From Alistipes sp. (GTDB lineage Bacteria > Bacteroidota > Bacteroidia > Bacteroidales > Rikenellaceae): DNA of 51,305 nucleotides. The stretch is from positions 1 to 51,305 of the forward strand of contig JAFTNV010000021.1 of assembly GCA_017451685.1 (NCBI GenBank), given 5' to 3'. The notes under the pieces were generated by a model. It worked only from the letters and a program-made list of their open reading frames with translations. It was not told where the DNA came from and did not search any database. The position numbers and the translations under genes were made by a program. Of this stretch, positions 3,913 to 51,305 are shown piece by piece. Position 1 is the stretch's first letter, and every line of letters begins with the position of its first letter.

Positions 3913-4328
3913 TGTCGCGCCTCATAGCCATAGACTACGGCACGAAGCGCACGGGGTTGGCCGTCACCGACCCCTTGGGCATCATCGCCTCGCCCCTCGA
4001 GACTGTCGATACGAAGCAGTTGGAACGCTTTTTGGCGGACTACTTCGCGCGCGAGGATGTCGATACCATCGTTGTGGGCTACCCGCGACAGATGAACGGC
4101 AAGCCGTCGGATACTATGCGCTATGTAGAACCACTTATCGGGCGCCTGCGCCACGCCTACCCCGAGAAGAGGGTCGTTGCCTACGACGAGAGGTTTACCT
4201 CCGTGTTGGCGCAGCGCACCATCCTCCAGAGCGGCATCGGCAAGATGGCACGTAGGGATAAGAGCCTTGTGGATAAGGTCTCGGCAGCCATAATCCTCCA
4301 AGATTATATGGCATCAGTAGAAATGTAA
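3912..4328 (+). CDS. ruvX: Putative pre-16S rRNA nuclease / Holliday junction resolvase YqgF
   Basis: The protein is a member of the YqgF/RuvX family with an RNase H-like fold, implicated in 16S rRNA 5'-end maturation and proposed earlier as a Holliday junction resolvase. The 138-residue product begins SRLIAIDYGTKRTGLAVTD, which contains the conserved Asp of the DxGxxRxG motif. It continues with IVVGYPRQMNGKPSD, the VVAYDERFTSVLAQ acidic motif, and DKVSAAIILQDYM, which supplies the last conserved Asp. It is full length. Its start codon overlaps the glyS stop by one base and def follows 23 bases downstream. Confidence 0.92.
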   Translation: MSRLIAIDYGTKRTGLAVTDPLGIIASPLETVDTKQLERFLADYFAREDVDTIVVGYPRQMNGKPSDTMRYVEPLIGRLRHAYPEKRVVAYDERFTSVLAQRTILQSGIGKMARRDKSLVDKVSAAIILQDYMASVEM

Positions 4329-4351: not shown

Positions 4352-4900
4352 ATGATATATCCGATCGTAATATATGGTTCGCAGATTCTGCGTAACGAGT
4401 CGGTGGATATCACCCCCGACTACCCCGAGCTTAAGAAGCTCATCGACGATATGTGGACTACGCTTGCCGAGGCTGAGGGTGTGGGTCTTGCTGCCCCGCA
4501 GATAGGCAAGAACATACGCCTCTTCATCGTCGATTGCACACCCTGGGGCGAGGATGACCCCACGCTTGCCGACTACCGCAGGGTGTTCATCAACCCCGAG
4601 ATATACGAGGAGTCGGAGGAGACGTCGCTCTTTGAGGAGGGGTGCCTCTCGCTCCCGGGCCTCCATGAGAATGTGCGTCGCCCCGTGACGATACGTATGC
4701 GCTACTTAGACGAGAACTTCGTTGAGCACGACGAGGAGTTCACGGGCAAGCCTGCGCGTGTCATCCAGCATGAGTACGACCATATCGAGGGCATGGTCTT
4801 TACCGACCACCTTGCCCCCCTTCGTCGCAACCTTATAAAGAACAAGCTTCAGAAGATGGCGCGTGGGTCGTACCGCGCAGCATACAAAACCAAGAGGTAA
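4352..4900 (+). CDS. def: Peptide deformylase
   Basis: Peptide deformylase removes the N-formyl group from nascent proteins in the cytoplasm using a metal ion, usually iron. All three family motifs are visible in the 182-residue product: GVGLAAPQIG (motif 1), EEGCLSLPG with the metal-binding Cys (motif 2) and HEYDHIEG, the HExxH-type motif 3 with two His ligands and the catalytic Glu. Length is normal. It is the last gene of glyS-ruvX-def. Its TAA stop is also the first three bases of an intergenic palindromic repeat. Confidence 0.95.
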   Translation: MIYPIVIYGSQILRNESVDITPDYPELKKLIDDMWTTLAEAEGVGLAAPQIGKNIRLFIVDCTPWGEDDPTLADYRRVFINPEIYEESEETSLFEEGCLSLPGLHENVRRPVTIRMRYLDENFVEHDEEFTGKPARVIQHEYDHIEGMVFTDHLAPLRRNLIKNKLQKMARGSYRAAYKTKR

Positions 4901-4988
4901 TTTGTTGTGATTAGGGAGTTTATAGAGATTAGGGAGCTTAGTGAATCTAAGGAAAAAAATATCCCTAATCTCTCTAAACTCCCTAATC
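4898..4988. repeat. Stop-anchored palindromic repeat with 27-bp arms
   Basis: The sequence TAATTTGTTGTGAT begins exactly at the def stop codon. It leads into an inverted repeat with arms at 4909-4935 and 4962-4988 (27 bp, one mismatch) and a 26-base loop that holds its own small stem (CTTAG/CTAAG). The arms are built from repeated TTAGGGAG-like units. It lies between convergent genes (def and the PNGase-like gene) and may act as a two-way terminator. A related hairpin is at 14423-14513. Confidence 0.75.
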
Positions 4989-5007
4989 TCCTTATATCCA
5001 ACCTCTC

Positions 5008-13484: not shown

Positions 13485-14270
13485 ATGATTAGTAATTTAG
13501 CTTACGTTCACCCCGATGCAAAGATCGGCAAGAACGTCACTATCGAGCCCTTCGCCTATGTTGAGGGCGACGTAGTCATCGGCGATGACTGCTGGATTGG
13601 CCCCCACGCCATCATCTACGATGGAGCACGCCTGGGTAAGGGTAACAAGGTGCACCCCGGTGCATGTATCGCCTGCCTGCCCCAGGATTTGAAGTTTGCG
13701 GGCGAGAAGACTACGGCTGTTATTGGCGACTATAACGACATCCGCGAGTGCGTGACCATAGCACGTGGTACGGCATCGCGCGGCACGACCATCATTGGCG
13801 ACCATAACCTTCTCATGGCATACGTACATGTGGCACACGACGACGTTGTCGGCAGCCACTGCGTCTTTGCTAACCGCCTGTCGTTGGCCGGCGAGGTCGA
13901 GGTTGGCGACTGGGTAGTCATCGGTGGCCATACGGCTGTGCACCAGTGGGTACATATCGGTGACCATGCCATGATTCAGGGTGGTGCTCTCGTTGTTCAG
14001 GATGTTCCCCCCTTCATCATCGCTACAAATGGCGAGACACACTATGCCGGCATCAATAAGGTGGGCCTCTCGCGCCGTGGCTTTACGGAGGAGCAGATAA
14101 CATCTATCCACAACACCTGCCGCATCCTCTTCCAGAGCGAGCTTAACTATCAGTCGGGCTGCGATAAGGCCGAGGCTGAGGTTGCTGAGAGCGCTGAGCG
14201 TAACTATCTTATCGACTTCATCCGCAACTCGAAGCGAGGGGTTATTAAGCAATACATCTCTCGAAGGTAA
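13485..14270 (+). CDS. lpxA: Acyl-ACP--UDP-N-acetylglucosamine O-acyltransferase
   Basis: LpxA carries out the first step of lipid A synthesis, acylation of UDP-GlcNAc at the 3-OH, in the cytoplasm. The 261-residue protein is a left-handed beta-helix with clear hexapeptide repeats from residue 8 on (DAKIGKNVTIEPFAYVEGDVVIGDDCWIGP). The catalytic His region is LLMAYVHVAHDDVVG. The C-terminal helical domain begins near GLSRRGFTEEQI. Length matches the family. Its stop TAA coincides with the start of a palindromic repeat (14268-14400). Confidence 0.96.
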   Translation: MISNLAYVHPDAKIGKNVTIEPFAYVEGDVVIGDDCWIGPHAIIYDGARLGKGNKVHPGACIACLPQDLKFAGEKTTAVIGDYNDIRECVTIARGTASRGTTIIGDHNLLMAYVHVAHDDVVGSHCVFANRLSLAGEVEVGDWVVIGGHTAVHQWVHIGDHAMIQGGALVVQDVPPFIIATNGETHYAGINKVGLSRRGFTEEQITSIHNTCRILFQSELNYQSGCDKAEAEVAESAERNYLIDFIRNSKRGVIKQYISRR

Positions 14271-14400
14271 TTTCTTGTGAAAAGTGGTCATCTTCGACCT
14301 CTCCCTAAAAATAGTGTGCCATGGGCTGTACATTTAAGTACTATCCCATGGCACTCTTTTATGTGATAGGCCAAATCTAACCCCTTCTGATAAGAAATTA
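14268..14400. repeat. Stop-anchored repeat (family 2) with terminator-like hairpin
   Basis: The element begins at the lpxA stop with TAATTTCTTGTGA and ends with TTCTGATAAGAAAT, which is its imperfect inverted complement. The core is a perfect 10-bp inverted repeat GTGCCATGGG (14316-14325) / CCCATGGCAC (14345-14354) followed by TCTTTT. The loop contains GTAC...AAGTAC, also present in the copies at 29225-29251 and 51197-51224. It separates the convergent genes lpxA and the acyltransferase, and the hairpin can serve as lpxA terminator. Confidence 0.75.
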
Positions 14401-14420
14401 AGTCTTTCAACTCGTTAGGT

Positions 14421-14513
14421 TGTGATTAGGGAAATTAGTGAGTTTGATGAGCTTAAGGATATATTACAGTGCTTCCTTAAATTCTCTAAACTCCGTAATT
14501 TCACTTCTAATCA
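14421..14513. repeat. Long imperfect hairpin (family 3), relative of 4909-4988
   Basis: TTGTGATTAGGGA opens an imperfect inverted repeat with arms 14423-14459 and 14474-14513, joined by a 14-base loop. The arm content (TTAGGG, AGTTT, CTAAACTCC, CTAATCA) matches the hairpin after def but with several substitutions and indels. It follows family-2 DNA and ends 39 bases before the stop of the minus-strand acyltransferase, for which it may be the terminator. Confidence 0.65.
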
Positions 14514-14552
14514 TCTCTGTCTCCCGACAAATTTTCTAAATTACTCTACACA

Positions 14553-28335: not shown

Positions 28336-29031
28336 ATGTTAAAAAAAGTATCTATCTTGATTCTTATCACGGCTCTCGTTGCCGTATACGAATCAACCGA
28401 GGGTAAGGCGCCTGCTGCAACCATTGATTATAGCGCAGTCCCTGCCCCCGCCAGCAACGAGCAGATGGCCGTGATGGCCGAGCTGCCGTGTATCATCTCA
28501 CGCTTCGACCCCATAATGCGTAAGGTCGGCAGCGAGGAGGGACAAGATTGGCGACTCATGAGCGCTATAGCATATAGCGAGTCGCGGTTTATTGAGAATT
28601 TGGAGTCTAAGCGCGGGGCCAAGGGTATCATGCAGATACGCCCCGTTGTTGCTCGTCACTTTAATGTGCCCGTGGAGGATATCGCCGACACGGAGACTAA
28701 TATCCGTCTTGCCGGCATGCTTCTTTCGGAGCTTGACACCATGCTTCGCATGCCACAGGGTACGCCTACGGAGGATCGCCTGAGCATCATCCTTGCCAGC
28801 TATAATGCCGGCATAGGTCACGTTCTTGATGCACGTCGTCTTGCGCGTTACGAGGGTGCCAACCCCAATTCGTGGGCAGATGTTAGCCGCTACCTTAAGC
28901 TCAAGTCCGAGCCACAGTATTACGAGCTTGATGTCGTAAAGAATGGTAAGTTTACCGGTAGCGGACAAACGTTACACTACGTTAGCGAGGTGATGCGTAA
29001 GTATCAGCAGTATTGTACCCTCGCCTCATAA
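28336..29031 (+). CDS. Lytic transglycosylase, SLT/MltF-type domain
   Basis: The enzyme cleaves the MurNAc-GlcNAc bond of peptidoglycan in the periplasm. The 231-residue product has an N-terminal signal or anchor helix and then a single SLT domain: IAYSESRF with catalytic Glu82, KGIMQIRPVVARHF, the NIRLAGMLL helix and LASYNAGIGHV. The substrate-binding N-terminal half of full MltF is absent, so it is a minimal form. Its stop TAA is the beginning of a nested repeat region. The MET start (MLKKVSI) is supported by the signal-like N-terminus. Confidence 0.9.
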   Translation: MLKKVSILILITALVAVYESTEGKAPAATIDYSAVPAPASNEQMAVMAELPCIISRFDPIMRKVGSEEGQDWRLMSAIAYSESRFIENLESKRGAKGIMQIRPVVARHFNVPVEDIADTETNIRLAGMLLSELDTMLRMPQGTPTEDRLSIILASYNAGIGHVLDARRLARYEGANPNSWADVSRYLKLKSEPQYYELDVVKNGKFTGSGQTLHYVSEVMRKYQQYCTLAS

Positions 29032-29300
29032 TTTGTTGTGATAGAGGCTGAATAAAAAGTGTATTTTGTCGTTATGCTTGCCCTCAAAATGCTCATTTAC
29101 GCCAAGTAAACTGCGCTTTTTCGGGCTTCGCATGCCTAAAACTACATCTTTTTATTCAACCTCATAACAGAAGGGGATGACAAATTTACTTTTTAGTCAT
29201 CCCCACTAACAAAAAGTGCCACCAATGGGACGTACTTCAAGTACTACCCATCGTCGGTATTTTTGCCGAGTGTTGCACTCGGCGCCTTCTGACAAGAAAT
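29029..29300. repeat. Family-2 repeat copy split by a nested 120-bp element
   Basis: The copy starts at the transglycosylase stop with TAATTTGTTGTGAT and ends with TTCTGACAAGAAAT. Inside are three hairpins: GGGGATGAC (29173-29181) with GTCATCCCC (29196-29204); ATGGG...GTAC...AAGTAC...CCCAT (29225-29251); and the perfect GCCGAGTG-TTG-CACTCGGC (29265-29283). A second element (29044-29163) sits near its left end. Removing that leaves 152 bp, close to the 125-133 bp of other copies. Confidence 0.75.
29044..29163. repeat. 120-bp palindromic element (family 1), copy A
   Basis: Terminal inverted repeats are GAGGCTGAATAAAAAG (29044-29059) and, on the opposite strand from 29163, GAGGTTGAATAAAAAG. The interior reads GTATTTTGTCGTTATGC, then CCCTCAAAATGCTCATTTACG, and ends GCTTCGCATGCCTAAAACTA. 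Copy B at 43402-43521 has the same length and most of the same sequence. No open frame of note is inside. It behaves like a MITE or REP-like element. Confidence 0.8.
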
Positions 29301-29401
29301 AAAGCTGTGTTACCTTTATAGTAACTTTTAGTAATCCATAGTAACTCACCGGAACCTATAGTAACTATCGGCCCCATTGCCCCCCCCCTCATCGAAAGGA
29401 G
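29301..29401. other. Intergenic remainder with short repeats and C9 run
   Basis: The unit TAGTAACT or a close variant recurs three to four times between 29325 and 29368, followed by a run of nine C residues (29380-29388) just before the end of the HAD gene. No gene is visible in the full 370-base gap (29032-29401) apart from the repeats listed. Confidence 0.5.
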
Positions 29402-29800
29402 TTACAGCACCTTGTCGTACTCGAGTTGCGTGCGCACCTTGCTCCAGTTGACTACGGGGTAGCGGGCACCGTCGATAAACATCACGGGGCAGCCGAGGGC
29501 GGCATCGTCGATATACAGGTCGGCATATATCTTGCGCGACTCTGTCCATGACTTCTGCTCCGGATTATCGTTCACGGCCCATAGCTCTATCTTGCGGTCG
29601 CGGAACCAGCGCAACGCGGCATCCAACTTCGCCCCCGAACGCATGGTATGCAGGATAAGCTTGTGCCCCTTCTTGTTAAGTGCGCGCAGGACATCCACAG
29701 CGCCGTCAACATCCATACCCACACTCGGGAACTCGTGCTCAACGCATGTGCCGTCGAAGTCGACAGCGATGACCATGCCGCTATCTTTGACACGTACCAT
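29402..29800 (-). CDS. Small HAD-like phosphohydrolase
   Basis: The 132-residue product has the HAD motif I DFDGTCVEHEFP (AVDFDGT, nucleophile Asp), KLILHTMRSGAKLDAAL for motif II and DLYIDDAALGCPVMF for the acidic motif near the end. It is a minimal HAD without cap, similar to small Bacteroides HAD proteins. Substrate unknown. The start may be the first Met or the ninth (MVIAVDF). It begins five bases after the Wzc-like gene stops, so it is co-transcribed with the export genes and could act on a sugar phosphate or a phospho-regulator. Confidence 0.75.
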   Translation of the reverse strand: MVRVKDSGMVIAVDFDGTCVEHEFPSVGMDVDGAVDVLRALNKKGHKLILHTMRSGAKLDAALRWFRDRKIELWAVNDNPEQKSWTESRKIYADLYIDDAALGCPVMFIDGARYPVVNWSKVRTQLEYDKVL

Positions 29801-42429: not shown

Positions 42430-43395
42430 ATGAAACTTGTTAAGTTTTTGGCAGCTTCTTTAGCTGCAGTTGCTATGTTGGCAGCTTGTGAGTCTGCAGA
42501 GGAGAACAAGGGCAATGGCAACAACAATGATGGTCAGGGCGGTATTATCGTTCAGGAGTTCGTAACGGTTTACTGTGATGTTACAGCTGCTGGTTGGGAA
42601 ACTTGCAGTGTTTGGGCATGGAACCTTGATGACAACTCTATTAACTACACTGGTGGCACTTGGCCCGGTGAGGCTCTTACTGAGACTGAGGAGATTGACG
42701 GTGTAAAGTACTACATCTGGAACTGTCCTAAGGAGACTGTTGGTACTACTATTGGCTTTATCCTTAACGAGGGTGTTGACGGTGGTGCTCAGACTATCGA
42801 CATTCACCTTCCTGTTGCAGACGGCGTTAAGGTTGCTGTTATTGAGCATCCCGAGGAAGACGGTAAGTGGAGCGCTACTATTGACGGTGTAGAGTTTGAC
42901 GAGCCTGAGAAGCCCGTTGTTGAGGAGCCTAAGAGCTTGGAGGGTCACTCTTGGGGCGTTATCGGTGCATTCAACAGTTGGAGTGCTGATGTCGCTATGA
43001 CCGTTGAGGGTAACACTGCCACCGCTACATTTGAGGTTACTGCTATCGATGGTGAGAATGGCCATTTCAAGGTACGTGCCGATGCAGGTTGGGATATTAG
43101 CTACGGTGTAAAGATGGCTGCTGCTGAGGCTGCAACATTTGCTGAGGGTGACGACGCTCCTACTGAGGGTGACACTACTGAGGGTGACACTACTGAGGGT
43201 GACACTACTGAGGGTGACACTACTGAGGGTGAGGAGACTCCCGAGGACGAGGGCCTCACAGTTATTCCTACAGACGGTACCCCCTTCCCCGCTACATTCA
43301 ATGGTAGCAATATCGTTGTAGAGGAGGCTGGTACCTACACTATCACGTTGACTATTACCGAGGAGGCTAGCACCTTCACTCTTACGAAGAACTAA
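42430..43395 (+). CDS. SusE-like starch-binding lipoprotein with CBM26-like domain
   Basis: The 321-residue surface lipoprotein has a signal ending LAAC (Cys20) with ESAEEN after it. Domain 1 (about 42-150) looks like a CBM26-type starch-binding module with WAWNLDDNSINYTGGTWPGEAL and FILNEGVDGGAQTIDIHL. Domain 2 (from about 172) is a SusE/SusF-type module: HSWGVIGAFNSWSADVAMTVEGNTATATFEV, FKVRADAGWDISYG and VVEEAGTYTITLTI. A loop of this second module carries an acidic tandem repeat (residues about 245-269, unit TEGDT). So it combines parts of SusE and unrelated starch modules. It is the third gene of the transporter-SusC-SusD-SusE run and probably helps hold starch at the surface. Confidence 0.85.
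   Translation: MKLVKFLAASLAAVAMLAACESAEENKGNGNNNDGQGGIIVQEFVTVYCDVTAAGWETCSVWAWNLDDNSINYTGGTWPGEALTETEEIDGVKYYIWNCPKETVGTTIGFILNEGVDGGAQTIDIHLPVADGVKVAVIEHPEEDGKWSATIDGVEFDEPEKPVVEEPKSLEGHSWGVIGAFNSWSADVAMTVEGNTATATFEVTAIDGENGHFKVRADAGWDISYGVKMAAAEAATFAEGDDAPTEGDTTEGDTTEGDTTEGDTTEGEETPEDEGLTVIPTDGTPFPATFNGSNIVVEEAGTYTITLTITEEASTFTLTKN
43161..43235 (+). repeat. 15-bp tandem repeat (5 copies) inside the SusE-like gene
   Basis: The unit TACTGAGGGTGACAC starts at 43161, 43176, 43191, 43206 and 43221; the first four are identical and the last differs in its final bases. Because the unit is a multiple of three, copy-number change keeps the frame and only lengthens or shortens the acidic linker. 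Confidence 0.9.
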
Positions 43396-43401
43396 TTAGT
43401 A

Positions 43402-43521
43402 GTAGCTTAATAAAAAGTGTATTTTGTCGTTATGCTTGCGCTCAAAATCCTCATTTACGACAAGTAAACTGCGGTTTCTCGCGCTTCGCATGCCTAAAAC
43501 TACATCTTTTTATTCACCTAC
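43402..43521. repeat. 120-bp palindromic element (family 1), copy B
   Basis: Terminal repeats are GTAGCTTAATAAAAAG (43402-43417) and, from 43521 on the other strand, GTAGGTGAATAAAAAG. The interior matches copy A (29044-29163) through TTTTGTCGTTATGCTTG, ATTTACGACAAGTAAACTGC and GCTTCGCATGCCTAAAACTA. It starts seven bases after the SusE-like stop and lies between the binding/import genes and the GH13 genes. Its stem could end or reduce transcription into the amylases. Confidence 0.8.
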
Positions 43522-43642
43522 TTGCTATTAGCGGTAAATTTTGGTCGTGGGGCTTTGAACGGCCCCTCGACCCCTAAGCCAAGCCGTCGTGGACACCGAG
43601 GAGCGCTTGGCACCAACGCGAAAGAACTAAAACACTACTAAT

Positions 43643-48563: not shown

Positions 48564-50429
48564 ATGAAAAGAGTATTAACCCTCGTAATGCTTCTTGCAG
48601 CTGTGGCCTCGGCCTCGGCAGCGAAACCTAAGTTTGAAGTAAAACATGTCGAGCCGCTGTCGTGGTGGGTAGGCATGAACACACCCTTGCAGCTGATGAT
48701 TAACGCCCAGGGTGTCGCTGACTACGATGTCGAGATTCTGCCTGCGGGTCAGGGTGTCGAGGTTAAGAGCGTGAATAAGGCCGAGAGCCCCAACTACCTC
48801 TTTGTCGATGTGGCCATCAGCGACGATGCCAAGGCGGGCGACTATACGCTGCGCTTCACCCTCGGCAAGCGTAAGTACGACTATACGTATACCATCGCTG
48901 AGCGTCGCGCAGGCTCTCGCGAGCGCGCAAGCTTCACTACGGCCGACTTCGTATACCTCATCATGCCAGACCGCTTTGCTAATGGCGACCCCTCGAACGA
49001 CTCTACCGACGACACCGCGGAGAAGGCCGAGCGTAGCAACCCGGGCCGTCGCCATGGTGGTGACCTGCAGGGTATGATCGACCACCTCGACTATATCGCT
49101 GACCTCGGTGTTACGGCCATCTGGTCTACACCGCTACTGTTGGACGACGAGAATGGTGCCTCGTACCACGGCTACTCGTGCAGCAACTACTATCTCATCG
49201 ACCCGCGCTACGGTACTAACGAGCTCTTCAAAACGTATGTTGACGAGTGTCATAAGCGCGACCTCAAGGTCATCATGGACATCGTCCCCAATCATAGCTC
49301 TACATCGCATTGGTGGTATGCCGACCTGCCCTTTGCCGACTGGGTGCACCAGTGGGATAGCTACACGCAGTCGAACTGGACATTCTCGACAAACATGGAC
49401 TTCAACGCCTCGAAGTCGGACTTGTACCAGATGGAGAGTGGCTGGTTTGACCGCTCGATGGCCGACATGAACCTCGATAACGAGTTCCTGCTCAACTACT
49501 TCAAGCAGTGGGCTGTATGGTGGATTGAGTATGCCGACCTCGATGGCTTCCGCGTCGATACATACCCCTATAACGAGAAGATGCCCATGAGCAAGTGGTG
49601 CAAGGCTGTCATGGATGAGTACCCCAACTTCAATATTGTTGGTGAGGTGTGGACGTCGTCTATTCCGCAGTTGGCATACTGGCAGGGTGGCAACGCCAAT
49701 AAGGATGGCTTCGACTCTAACCTTAAGTCTATCATGGACTTCCCGTTGCATGATGCCATACGTGCTGCGATGACGGAGTACGACACGCGCGGTGGCTGGG
49801 GCATGGGCATGACACGTGTATACGATGTGTTGTCGCACGACTTCGTATATCACGACCTCAGCAATATGATGATTATGGCCGGCAACCACGACACCGACCG
49901 TGTGGGCGATGTGTGCGATGGCGACCACCGTCGCATGAAGATTGTCACGGCACTCCTTGCCACGCTCCGCGGCATGCCACAGATGTTGTATGGCGACGAG
50001 CTCATGTTCCGCTCTACGGATCGCTCGAAGGGTCATCCTACGCTCCGCGTGGACTTCCCCGGCGGCTGGGAGGGCGACAAGAAGAACCTCTTCGACCGTA
50101 GCCAGCACGAGGGTGTGGAGAAGGATGTCTTCGACTATACCCACAAGCTCTTTAACTGGCGTAAGACTAAGGAGGTGATACATACGGGCAAGACCCTCCA
50201 CTTCATCGACCGCGATAACACCTACGCCTACTTCCGCTATAACGATACGGATGTTGTCTTTGTATATGTCAACAATACCGAGCAGGAGCGCACCATCCCT
50301 TGGGAGCGTTATTCTGAGCTCTCTGCCGGCCTCGGCACGGGTCGCGATGTAATCACCGGTGAGGAGGTTGAGATGCACGGAAAGCGCGTAGCACCGATGA
50401 CAGCACTAATCGTTGAATTCCCCCGATAA
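48564..50429 (+). CDS. SusA-like neopullulanase / cyclomaltodextrinase (GH13)
   Basis: A periplasmic GH13 enzyme that splits maltodextrins, pullulan or cyclodextrins. The 621-residue product has a signal peptide (VASASAAKPK, cut near residue 20) and an N-terminal cyclomaltodextrinase-type Ig domain (VEPLSWWVGMNTPLQLMI). The barrel has VYLIMPDRFANGDPSND, nucleophile Asp332 (GFRVDTYPY), acid/base Glu361 (NIVGEVWTS) and Asp443 (GNHDTDRV). Length and domain order match SusA of B. thetaiotaomicron (about 617 residues). It is the last gene of the starch run, and its TAA is the first base triplet of another stop-anchored repeat. Confidence 0.93.
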   Translation: MKRVLTLVMLLAAVASASAAKPKFEVKHVEPLSWWVGMNTPLQLMINAQGVADYDVEILPAGQGVEVKSVNKAESPNYLFVDVAISDDAKAGDYTLRFTLGKRKYDYTYTIAERRAGSRERASFTTADFVYLIMPDRFANGDPSNDSTDDTAEKAERSNPGRRHGGDLQGMIDHLDYIADLGVTAIWSTPLLLDDENGASYHGYSCSNYYLIDPRYGTNELFKTYVDECHKRDLKVIMDIVPNHSSTSHWWYADLPFADWVHQWDSYTQSNWTFSTNMDFNASKSDLYQMESGWFDRSMADMNLDNEFLLNYFKQWAVWWIEYADLDGFRVDTYPYNEKMPMSKWCKAVMDEYPNFNIVGEVWTSSIPQLAYWQGGNANKDGFDSNLKSIMDFPLHDAIRAAMTEYDTRGGWGMGMTRVYDVLSHDFVYHDLSNMMIMAGNHDTDRVGDVCDGDHRRMKIVTALLATLRGMPQMLYGDELMFRSTDRSKGHPTLRVDFPGGWEGDKKNLFDRSQHEGVEKDVFDYTHKLFNWRKTKEVIHTGKTLHFIDRDNTYAYFRYNDTDVVFVYVNNTEQERTIPWERYSELSAGLGTGRDVITGEEVEMHGKRVAPMTALIVEFPR

Positions 50430-50552
50430 TTTGTTGTGATAGCGGCGCATTAGCAACGCTTCAGTCAAAATCCCGAATAGGAAATGCGTCAAGTATGTCC
50501 TATCCGGGATTTTTCGTATCAGCACCACATTAGCATCTCTCCGACAACGATT
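50427..50552. repeat. Stop-anchored repeat (family 2) carrying a terminator
   Basis: Begins at the SusA-like stop with TAATTTGTTGTGAT and ends near TCTCCGACAACGA, an eroded inverse of the start. The core ATCCCGAATAGGA (50470-50482) pairs with TCCTATCCGGGAT (50498-50510) with one mismatch and is followed by TTTT, a good intrinsic terminator for the starch locus. The loop GCGTCAAGTATG parallels GTACTTCAAGTACT of the copy at 29.2 kb. Confidence 0.7.
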
Positions 50553-50575
50553 GTAATCTATTTATTGTGCCCCTT

Positions 50576-50607
50576 TTTGGATATTTCGATTATAATGCCT
50601 ATATTTG
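50576..50607 (+). promoter_or_regulatory. Promoter of the coiled-coil gene
   Basis: TTTG at 50576-50579, a 20-base spacer and TATATTTG at 50600-50607 match the Bacteroidota consensus very well. The start codon of the downstream gene is 44 bases after the -7 box. Confidence 0.7.
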
Positions 50608-50650
50608 TAAAAGCATAGCGCAGAAACGTATAACAAAAACAGTATAGGTT

Positions 50651-51100
50651 ATGAAGAGACTATTATTTGTTGTGGCCTTTATGGCTGCGGTATCTACACT
50701 CTCAGCGCAGCACCCCGAAAAGACATTGGCCGAGGCGCATATCGAGTATGACAGGGCTGTTGCCGACCGAAAGTTGGCGCTCGACGAGGCGCGCAACGAG
50801 GAGCGTCGCATCACGGATGCTGCGAAGGATCGCTTGGAGCGTGCACGCGAGGAGCTAAACAAAGAGAAGCAGGAGTATCAGCTTATTGCCGAGGAGTGCA
50901 AGCGCCGCATAAAGGAGGCACAGGCCGAGGTGGACAACGCTACCCTTTACTACAAGCAGGAGGCTACGCGCACAAAGCAGGAGATATCGGCTGCAAAGTC
51001 TAAGGTCAAGGCCGTAGATGCTGAGAAACAGGCGGCCGTGGCGAGCGCCAAGGCTGAGGTTGCGCGTATAAAAGCACTGGAGCACGGTAAGGCTAAGTAA
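50651..51100 (+). CDS. Small secreted coiled-coil protein of unknown function
   Basis: The 149-residue product has a clear signal peptide (MKRLLFVVAFMAAVSTLSAQ). After it the protein is almost entirely charged and helical, rich in Glu, Lys, Arg and Ala with heptad-like spacing (RLERAREELNKEKQEYQLIAEECKR), one Cys (in EECKR) and no aromatic core. It should form a long coiled coil in the periplasm, comparable in style to OmpH/Skp-like or Lpp-type proteins, though no family signature is recognised. It has its own promoter and is separated from the starch locus by a terminator. Confidence 0.85.
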   Translation: MKRLLFVVAFMAAVSTLSAQHPEKTLAEAHIEYDRAVADRKLALDEARNEERRITDAAKDRLERAREELNKEKQEYQLIAEECKRRIKEAQAEVDNATLYYKQEATRTKQEISAAKSKVKAVDAEKQAAVASAKAEVARIKALEHGKAK

Positions 51101-51117
51101 TAGTAACTACAAAATAT

Positions 51118-51305
51118 GAGAGTGAATAAAAGTGTATTTTGTCGTTCTTTGTTGTGATAATGGTGCATCTACTTCCGCTAACGAATTATCTCGTCAATGG
51201 GCAGTACGCCTAAGTACAGCCCATCGCCTCGAAATTCGCCGAGCGTTGTATCTGCACCATTCTGACAACAAATGTGCTCGCCCTCAAAATGCTCATTTAC
51301 GTCGA
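51118..51305. repeat. Family-1 element split by an inserted family-2 element (runs off the edge)
   Basis: The left part of family 1 (GTGAATAAAAGTGTATTTTG, ending GTCGTT at 51146) is interrupted by 51148-51272. The family-1 sequence resumes with GCTCGCCCTCAAAATGCTCA to the window end. The inserted element has terminal repeats TTTGTTGTGATAATGGTGCA (51148-51167) and TGCACCATTCTGACAACAAA (51253-51272), inverse to each other apart from a few bases. Its core hairpin ATGGG...GTAC...AAGTAC...CCCAT lies at 51197-51224. Confidence 0.75.

Follow-up and report, generated by a model that had tools for sequence, protein, structure and literature searches.

Short repeats that fold into hairpins are known from several bacteria, and three described groups come closest to F1 and F2, two structured palindromic families in a 51,305-nt stretch of Alistipes sp. 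DNA (GenBank assembly GCA_017451685.1, contig JAFTNV010000021.1; here, the window). In bacterial interspersed mosaic elements (BIMEs), palindromes are joined into mosaics. Repetitive extragenic palindromic sequences (REPs), their hairpin-forming pairs (REPINs) and BIMEs, together with the REP-associated tyrosine transposase (RAYT), resemble the families described here in being extragenic palindromes with genome-specific stems (PMC3733652), and in their mosaic combinations; unlike them, our units measure 120-160 nt, not 20-40, and no Y1 transposase was found in 61 genomes of the genus. Miniature inverted-repeat transposable elements (MITEs), such as BrickBuilt of Porphyromonas gingivalis, are like F1 non-coding, multi-copy and intergenic, with inverted ends (PMC4596501, PMC10969869). 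In other Bacteroidales, F1 is MITE-like also in combining inverted ends with 5-bp target duplications; unlike MITEs, it keeps a covarying hairpin core across families while its outer stems are rewritten, and it comes without a matching insertion sequence found and, in Alistipes, without a target duplication. Finally, pneumococcal BOX, RUP and SPRITE elements, the last named as rho-independent terminator-like elements (PMC10969869), belong to another host, and the likeness is one of description, sequences not having been compared (PMC3049150); F2 differs from them in that it abuts stop codons in a single orientation, and in the present case several genomes carry dispersed copies of a nested composite of F1 and F2. 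Neither family is described in the accessible portions of PMC10969869, PMC4596501, PMC3733652, PMC7366714 or PMC9769881, and a literature search found no description of F1 or F2, figure sequences and most subscription papers lying outside its reach and no sequences being compared.

Hairpins nested at 29.0 and 51.1 kb

A sequence-only reading of the window had each family interrupt the other, F1 inside F2 at 29.0 kb and F2 inside F1 at 51.1 kb, and took both for jumpers that serve each other as landing sites. If both orders are present, do both families jump? Solo copies of each are indeed many, but the two nestings differ in kind and are not equivalent, reciprocal jumps. We favour, with modest confidence, a reading in which F1 is a MITE-like element that spreads, F2 is resident, a single event placed F1 in F2, and an older F2-in-F1 composite has itself become mobile. 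Both structured palindromes would then sit at gene 3′ ends: F2 as a long, genus-level hairpin that begins at the stop codon, keeps its internal loops conserved, is mostly inherited in place and duplicates locally in tandem; F1 as a non-autonomous, widely distributed MITE-like hairpin that copies itself to further gene ends and could there put its two hairpins in place of a resident one. At 29.0 kb, an F1 unit would have landed in F2, replacing the P2 hairpin of the latter; earlier, F2 would have settled in F1, within its left internal loop, and the composite, still mobile, would have multiplied separately in at least six species, the 51.1-kb copy being one product.

The nesting at 29.0 kb is as proposed: F1 lies between the F2 start TTTGTTGTGATA and an F2 remainder that ends in TTCTGACAAGAAAT (coordinates in Table 1). 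The inserted piece is a 161-nt unit (29044-29204) made of the 120-bp F1 hairpin and a second, 32-nt hairpin of a kind found alongside F1 elsewhere too. That this second hairpin belongs to the insert explains the odd 152 bp that had been ascribed to F2: what is left of F2 amounts to 109 nt as cut (29032-29043 plus 29205-29301), which aligns with the uninterrupted 125-nt F2 of the relative RGIG6186 (L088) except for the P2 hairpin (17-19 nt), now gone. Uninterrupted F2 stands directly 3′ of the orthologous gene in the relatives L087, L088 and L089. Among the loci in hand, a left-junction pattern found an intact F1-in-F2 arrangement at the window locus only, two further matches (L140 and L177) being judged chance. 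In L088, downstream of the orthologous gene, a degraded F1-like stretch (4000-4041) lies in another F2-like copy, possibly a second event of this type in a relative.

Sites free of F1 exist in close relatives, that at 29.0 kb included, a check which the sequence-only reading had proposed. They were found at four of nine F1 sites queried: L033 and L039 (in both G258 and G259), L035 (in G258) and L041 (in G259). Of the other flank queries, L037 was uninformative because its right flank held F1 sequence, L034 returned one flank only, and L036, L038 and L042 returned spacers between the flanks of 376 nt, 162 and 182 nt, and 287 nt, respectively. At L033, L035 and L041, a different short hairpin, judged by eye, occupies the space between the same flanks; together with the F2 copy at 29.0 kb, these three of the four sites suggest that the F1 unit tends to replace a resident hairpin. 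Since the F1 copies are closely similar, gain of F1 in this lineage would be a simpler reading than its loss.

The reverse order at 51.1 kb is likewise borne out, with F1 sequence on both sides of F2. Its left junction, GTCGTTC followed directly by TTTGTTGTGAT, recurs in 23 of 23 composite rows, even though spacers of 0-8 nt would have been accepted by the search; an exact left half-site was required, so altered junctions would be missed. These rows represent 22 loci, one of which was counted through two contig ends, in 6 of 180 genomes of the genus, and their upstream reading frames (one per locus, tblastn) show no match between different loci. Instead of F2 having jumped into F1 at 51.1 kb, as had been supposed, the site carries a copy of a composite with a single left junction that is dispersed as a unit in six genomes. 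In the 17 composites whose F2 could be read, the identity of this part is 98.1% inside a genome and 86.0% from one genome to another. The internal loop of F1 on the opposite, right side can hold a 71-nt insert, which occurs with and without F2 (rows L354, L355, L358, L366 and L367; also L043 and L044) and is 96.7% identical between genomes (five composites), compared to 86.0% for the adjoining F2 part. Going by these sequences, the simplest reading would be one old nesting, after which the composite dispersed and was amplified species by species.

Fold, placement and ends of the two families

F2 is mostly a resident 3′-end element. A near full-length hairpin fits 92.8% of cells in 46 aligned copies (drawn from 60 distinct full-length reads; 4 antisense palindromic and 10 tandem or near-identical reads were omitted), with 193 double-change cells against 56.9 ± 5.4 after shuffling and at most 34 with a slid partner. 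The terminal stems vary freely among copies (TTTGTTGT/ACAACAAA, TTTGGCGT/ACGCCAAA, TTTTGCGA/TCGCAAAA), while the internal loops are conserved as mismatches, a combination that argues for selection on the fold and not for simple arm correction. Every one of the 25 untruncated rows (23 distinct) has the same orientation as the gene upstream, a count that is approximate because genes were called with our own open reading frame and codon scorer and some neighbors were mis-chosen, e.g., at L041. The distance from the upstream stop codon to the start of F2 is at most 6 nt in 34 of the 46 aligned copies and zero in 19, stop codons being taken from frames of at least 60 codons; an opposing gene ends within the same range of the other F2 end in none of the 46. 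Tandem copies are frequent.

Of 61 genus genomes, 35 contain matches to the F2 model, and 17 of these reach 42-57 each (only 57 candidates being scored); across the order, the model matches 2 of 198 genomes, namely the source genome and one with three weak matches; F2 is nearly restricted to the genus. A 436-kb sample that includes the window contains 27 F2 places, or 25 distinct ones in ~366 kb, including two truncated at contig ends, once a redundant contig is removed (C37, 70,650 bp, is 99.96% identical to C23:142-70763, so that L250-L253 correspond to L240-L243); extrapolation gives roughly a hundred copies per genome.

Could both families simply be ordinary 3′-end RNAs, inherited vertically and nested by decay or local rearrangement, with no mobility at all? 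The sense placement of F2 at stop codons, its presence in relatives at the orthologous gene and the conserved structure of both families are all expected on this view, and most single F2 copies may fit it; the earlier idea that F2 has moved repeatedly fares badly for the same reason, since F2 mostly resides at stop codons and is common to relatives. As an account of both families, we find it improbable, given composites at 22 loci in six genomes with unmatched upstream genes, the F1-free sites and the target duplications of F1-type elements elsewhere. The suggestion of a non-autonomous mobile system accordingly suits F1, which is multi-copy, has sharp edges and is missing at some orthologous sites, and not the mostly resident F2.

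F1 is structured too: in 42 aligned copies (of 61 reads), 94.6% of cells are paired, with 133 double changes compared to 37.8 ± 4.1 after shuffling and at most 29 after sliding. It is far more widespread, detected by blastn in 43 of 61 genus genomes and by its model in 51 of 198 genomes of the order Bacteroidales (45 of 151 genera); across families, inspection by eye finds the core kept and the outer stem rewritten, largely by paired changes. Chance likeness is excluded for both families by their many blastn copies genome-wide (in the source genome, 20 rows with E < 1e-16 for F1 and 30 rows with E ≤ 3.6e-13 for F2). In the source genome, 15 of 17 distinct F1 copies (L031-L048) share the strand of the called upstream gene, a count as approximate as that for F2. 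As in MITEs, F1 copies are short, non-coding, numerous and closely similar.

In other families, the ends of F1 are inverted repeats with a left end of the AGTGYYTGCAAGAAAAC or GTGTTTGTCCATAA type, and the best-matching right end resembles the left one at 12/19 or better in 43 of 45 unique-flank copies from other Bacteroidales; such scores are maxima over a range, hence generous, and some right ends were mis-picked as an inner hairpin arm (e.g., L276, L277 and L294-L300). The Alistipes F1 is mostly a unit of two hairpins, and the right arm of the second is similar to the inverted left end (best match at least 11/16) in 32 of 45 copies. Five-base-pair direct repeats (e.g., AAATA, AATTA, ATTTA, ATATA, AAGTA, ATCTA, ACTTA) flank F1 in the other families: a first script counted 28 of 56 rows, with some copies fetched twice; with unique flanks and automatic right ends, 20 of 43 copies have exact duplications, compared to 4.1 on average and at most 11 in 10,000 shuffles. 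These duplications suggest that a transposase may act on F1 in trans. The edges of F1 are sharp and solo copies of both families abundant, which the sequence-only reading would count as support for mobility; the target duplications that it sought are present for F1-type elements in other Bacteroidales and not among the Alistipes copies. To the right of F1 at L171 (G011:C13), the second hairpin is interrupted by what may be the end of an IS3-type insertion sequence.

Which enzyme, if any, moves F1? The sequence-only reading proposed a REP-associated Y1 transposase, which would make F1 and F2 elements of the REP/REPIN type moved by RAYT. They are short, palindromic, multi-copy and extragenic, with outer stems that vary by genome, as this would require; a search of 61 genus genomes, 43 with F1, however, found the Y1_Tnp domain (PF01797) in none, while 5 of 14 genomes in a control set were positive, and we regard this explanation as very improbable. 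Copying by a reverse transcriptase was also considered: RVT_1 occurs in 20 of the 61 genomes but was not found in the source genome (G000, 80.6% complete) or in the F1-rich G011, G044, G051 and G074, and is probably not required for F1 spread. A partner insertion sequence would be expected to carry the ends AGTGYYWGCAAGAAAAC; G150, G240 and G236 are F1-rich Bacteroidales genomes. In a search by end pattern, the excess of the F1 ends over the reversed control is strong in G150 (248 vs. 38) and slight in G207 (54 vs. 32) and G227 (42 vs. 39).

Transposition or template switching

Several observations weigh against a spreading, transposed F1 and a 3′-end role for F2. The direction of change at the F1-free sites rests on the near-identity of copies, not on a tree. 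The replaced hairpins and the F1 unit have only short G-run/C-run edges in common, which template switching would fit too. No target duplication is clearly enriched among 32 Alistipes F1 copies (left offsets from -6 to +4, right offsets from -4 to +6), so the case for transposition within the genus is indirect. The spacer at the right of the composite varies by genome (TGT, ACA, TTT, CAT, TT), which makes a single origin of the composite less than certain. F1 shares the strand of the called neighbor in 11 of 20 copies from other families, again an approximate count; compared to 15 of 17 here, this makes the strand rule particular to the genus. Among the matches listed for three genomes, no two ends stand at the spacing of an insertion sequence, and no autonomous partner was found by similarity in plasmids. 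A pattern scan for terminators, defined as a GC stem with a T-run behind it by a rule that excludes stems with internal loops, returned 0 sites in 28950-29450, 50350-51305 and 14200-14550; by eye, many F2 copies show an interrupted GC stem followed by TTTTT, and some variants, including the 51.1-kb copy, lack the T-run.

Could hairpins be exchanged with no enzyme acting in trans? Template switching or gene conversion during replication might swap, nest and homogenize hairpins via short GGGG/CCCC edges. This would account for the replacement of one hairpin by another at 29.0 kb and, by eye, at three of the four F1-free sites, for the missing Alistipes target duplications, for L052, L053 and L058, where an F1 apical core sits on F2 outer stems, for the several combinations of the 71-nt insert with F2, and for the homogeneity of the composite within a genome. 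It does less well with elements of the same type that have target duplications in other Bacteroidales; the 22 loci without matching upstream genes would call for copying to sites that lack long homology, and the mismatches conserved in the internal loops would not survive simple arm correction. We consider it rather unlikely and keep to the MITE-like reading of F1, under which mobile hairpins would remodel gene ends in a major gut order and nested composites could become new mobile units; the two covarying families (~125 nt each) would also offer a large natural set for testing structures that abut stop codons.

The F1 core beyond Bacteroidales

The core of F1, AAAATGCTCATTTAC-loop-GTAAACTSCGCTTTT, appears to cross phyla. 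With the window element as query, blastn against a plasmid collection finds it in Pseudomonas veronii (8e-7), Fukatsuia (1e-5) and Halomonas (1e-4), a Staphylococcus aureus record of that collection being not significant (E 0.8). The F1 model gives E-values of 1.5e-10 for P. veronii, 3e-5 for Fukatsuia, 1.9e-9 for Halomonas and 0.0018 for S. aureus, as well as 9.8e-8 and 0.0049 for related stretches of P. tremae and P. aeruginosa, all with rough calibration and over a few kilobases of preselected sequence. The outer stems around the core in these plasmid stretches are unrelated. A search of E. coli genomes did not find the core, and a phage collection gave one chance-like match. In Pseudomonas and Halomonas plasmid records, F1-like cores lie within palindromes (L371:2481-2565, L373:2463-2584 and L376:1182-1300); the L371 copy has TTAA at both sides.

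A more far-reaching proposal, which we put forward only tentatively, is that F2 may be an undescribed class of structured RNA that acts as the ribosome leaves the gene, by coupled termination or 3′-end protection, at about a hundred places per genome, that the F1 core may be a cross-phylum module carried on mobile hairpins, and that transposition and nesting may let genomes gain and exchange the structures at their gene ends. With E-values up to 1 admitted, an Rfam scan matched neither F1 nor F2 positions; two matches elsewhere in the scan, both far below curated cut-offs, were set aside.

Table 1. Positions of F1, F2 and associated features in the window
Feature	Position	Length	Strand	Remarks
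Solo F2	14271-14397		+	directly after stop of gene 13485-14270
Host gene	28336-29031	231 aa	+	putative lytic transglycosylase (label by sequence reading); stop, then F2 directly
F2 5′ remnant (P1 stem, 5′ side)	29032-29043		+	TTTGTTGTGATA
F1 hairpin 1 (GAGG ... CCTC)	29044-29163	120 bp	+	R2 model match 29044-29165, 142.1 bits
Second hairpin of F1 unit	29173-29204	32 nt	+	right arm like inverted F1 left end, 13/16
F2 3′ remainder (P3, P4, P1 3′ side)	29205-29300		+	R1 match 29190-29299, 64.2 bits
Solo F1	43402-43523		+	after gene 42430-43395
Solo F2	50430-50551		+	directly after stop of gene 48564-50429
F1 left arm in composite	51118-51147		+	junction GTCGTTC/TTTGTTGTGAT
F2 inside F1	51148-51272	125 bp	+	R1 match, 130.5 bits
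F1 core to contig end	51273-51305		+	assembly breaks within composite

The window is the whole of contig C11 in a draft genome of 1.59 Mb (43 contigs, 80.6% complete), and the nearest named relatives that a search returned are metagenome-assembled genomes from the ruminant gut, labelled Alistipes sp. Contigs C15, C18, C20, C21, C23, C28, C30, C31 and C38 also end within the F2-in-F1 composite or its parts; such assembly breaks mark further near-identical copies. At 4901-4999 of the window, the F2 start TTTGTTGTGAT directly follows the stop of gene 4352-4900 and is continued by an unrelated, AT-rich long hairpin, whose weak Rfam match to a miRNA is surely due to chance.
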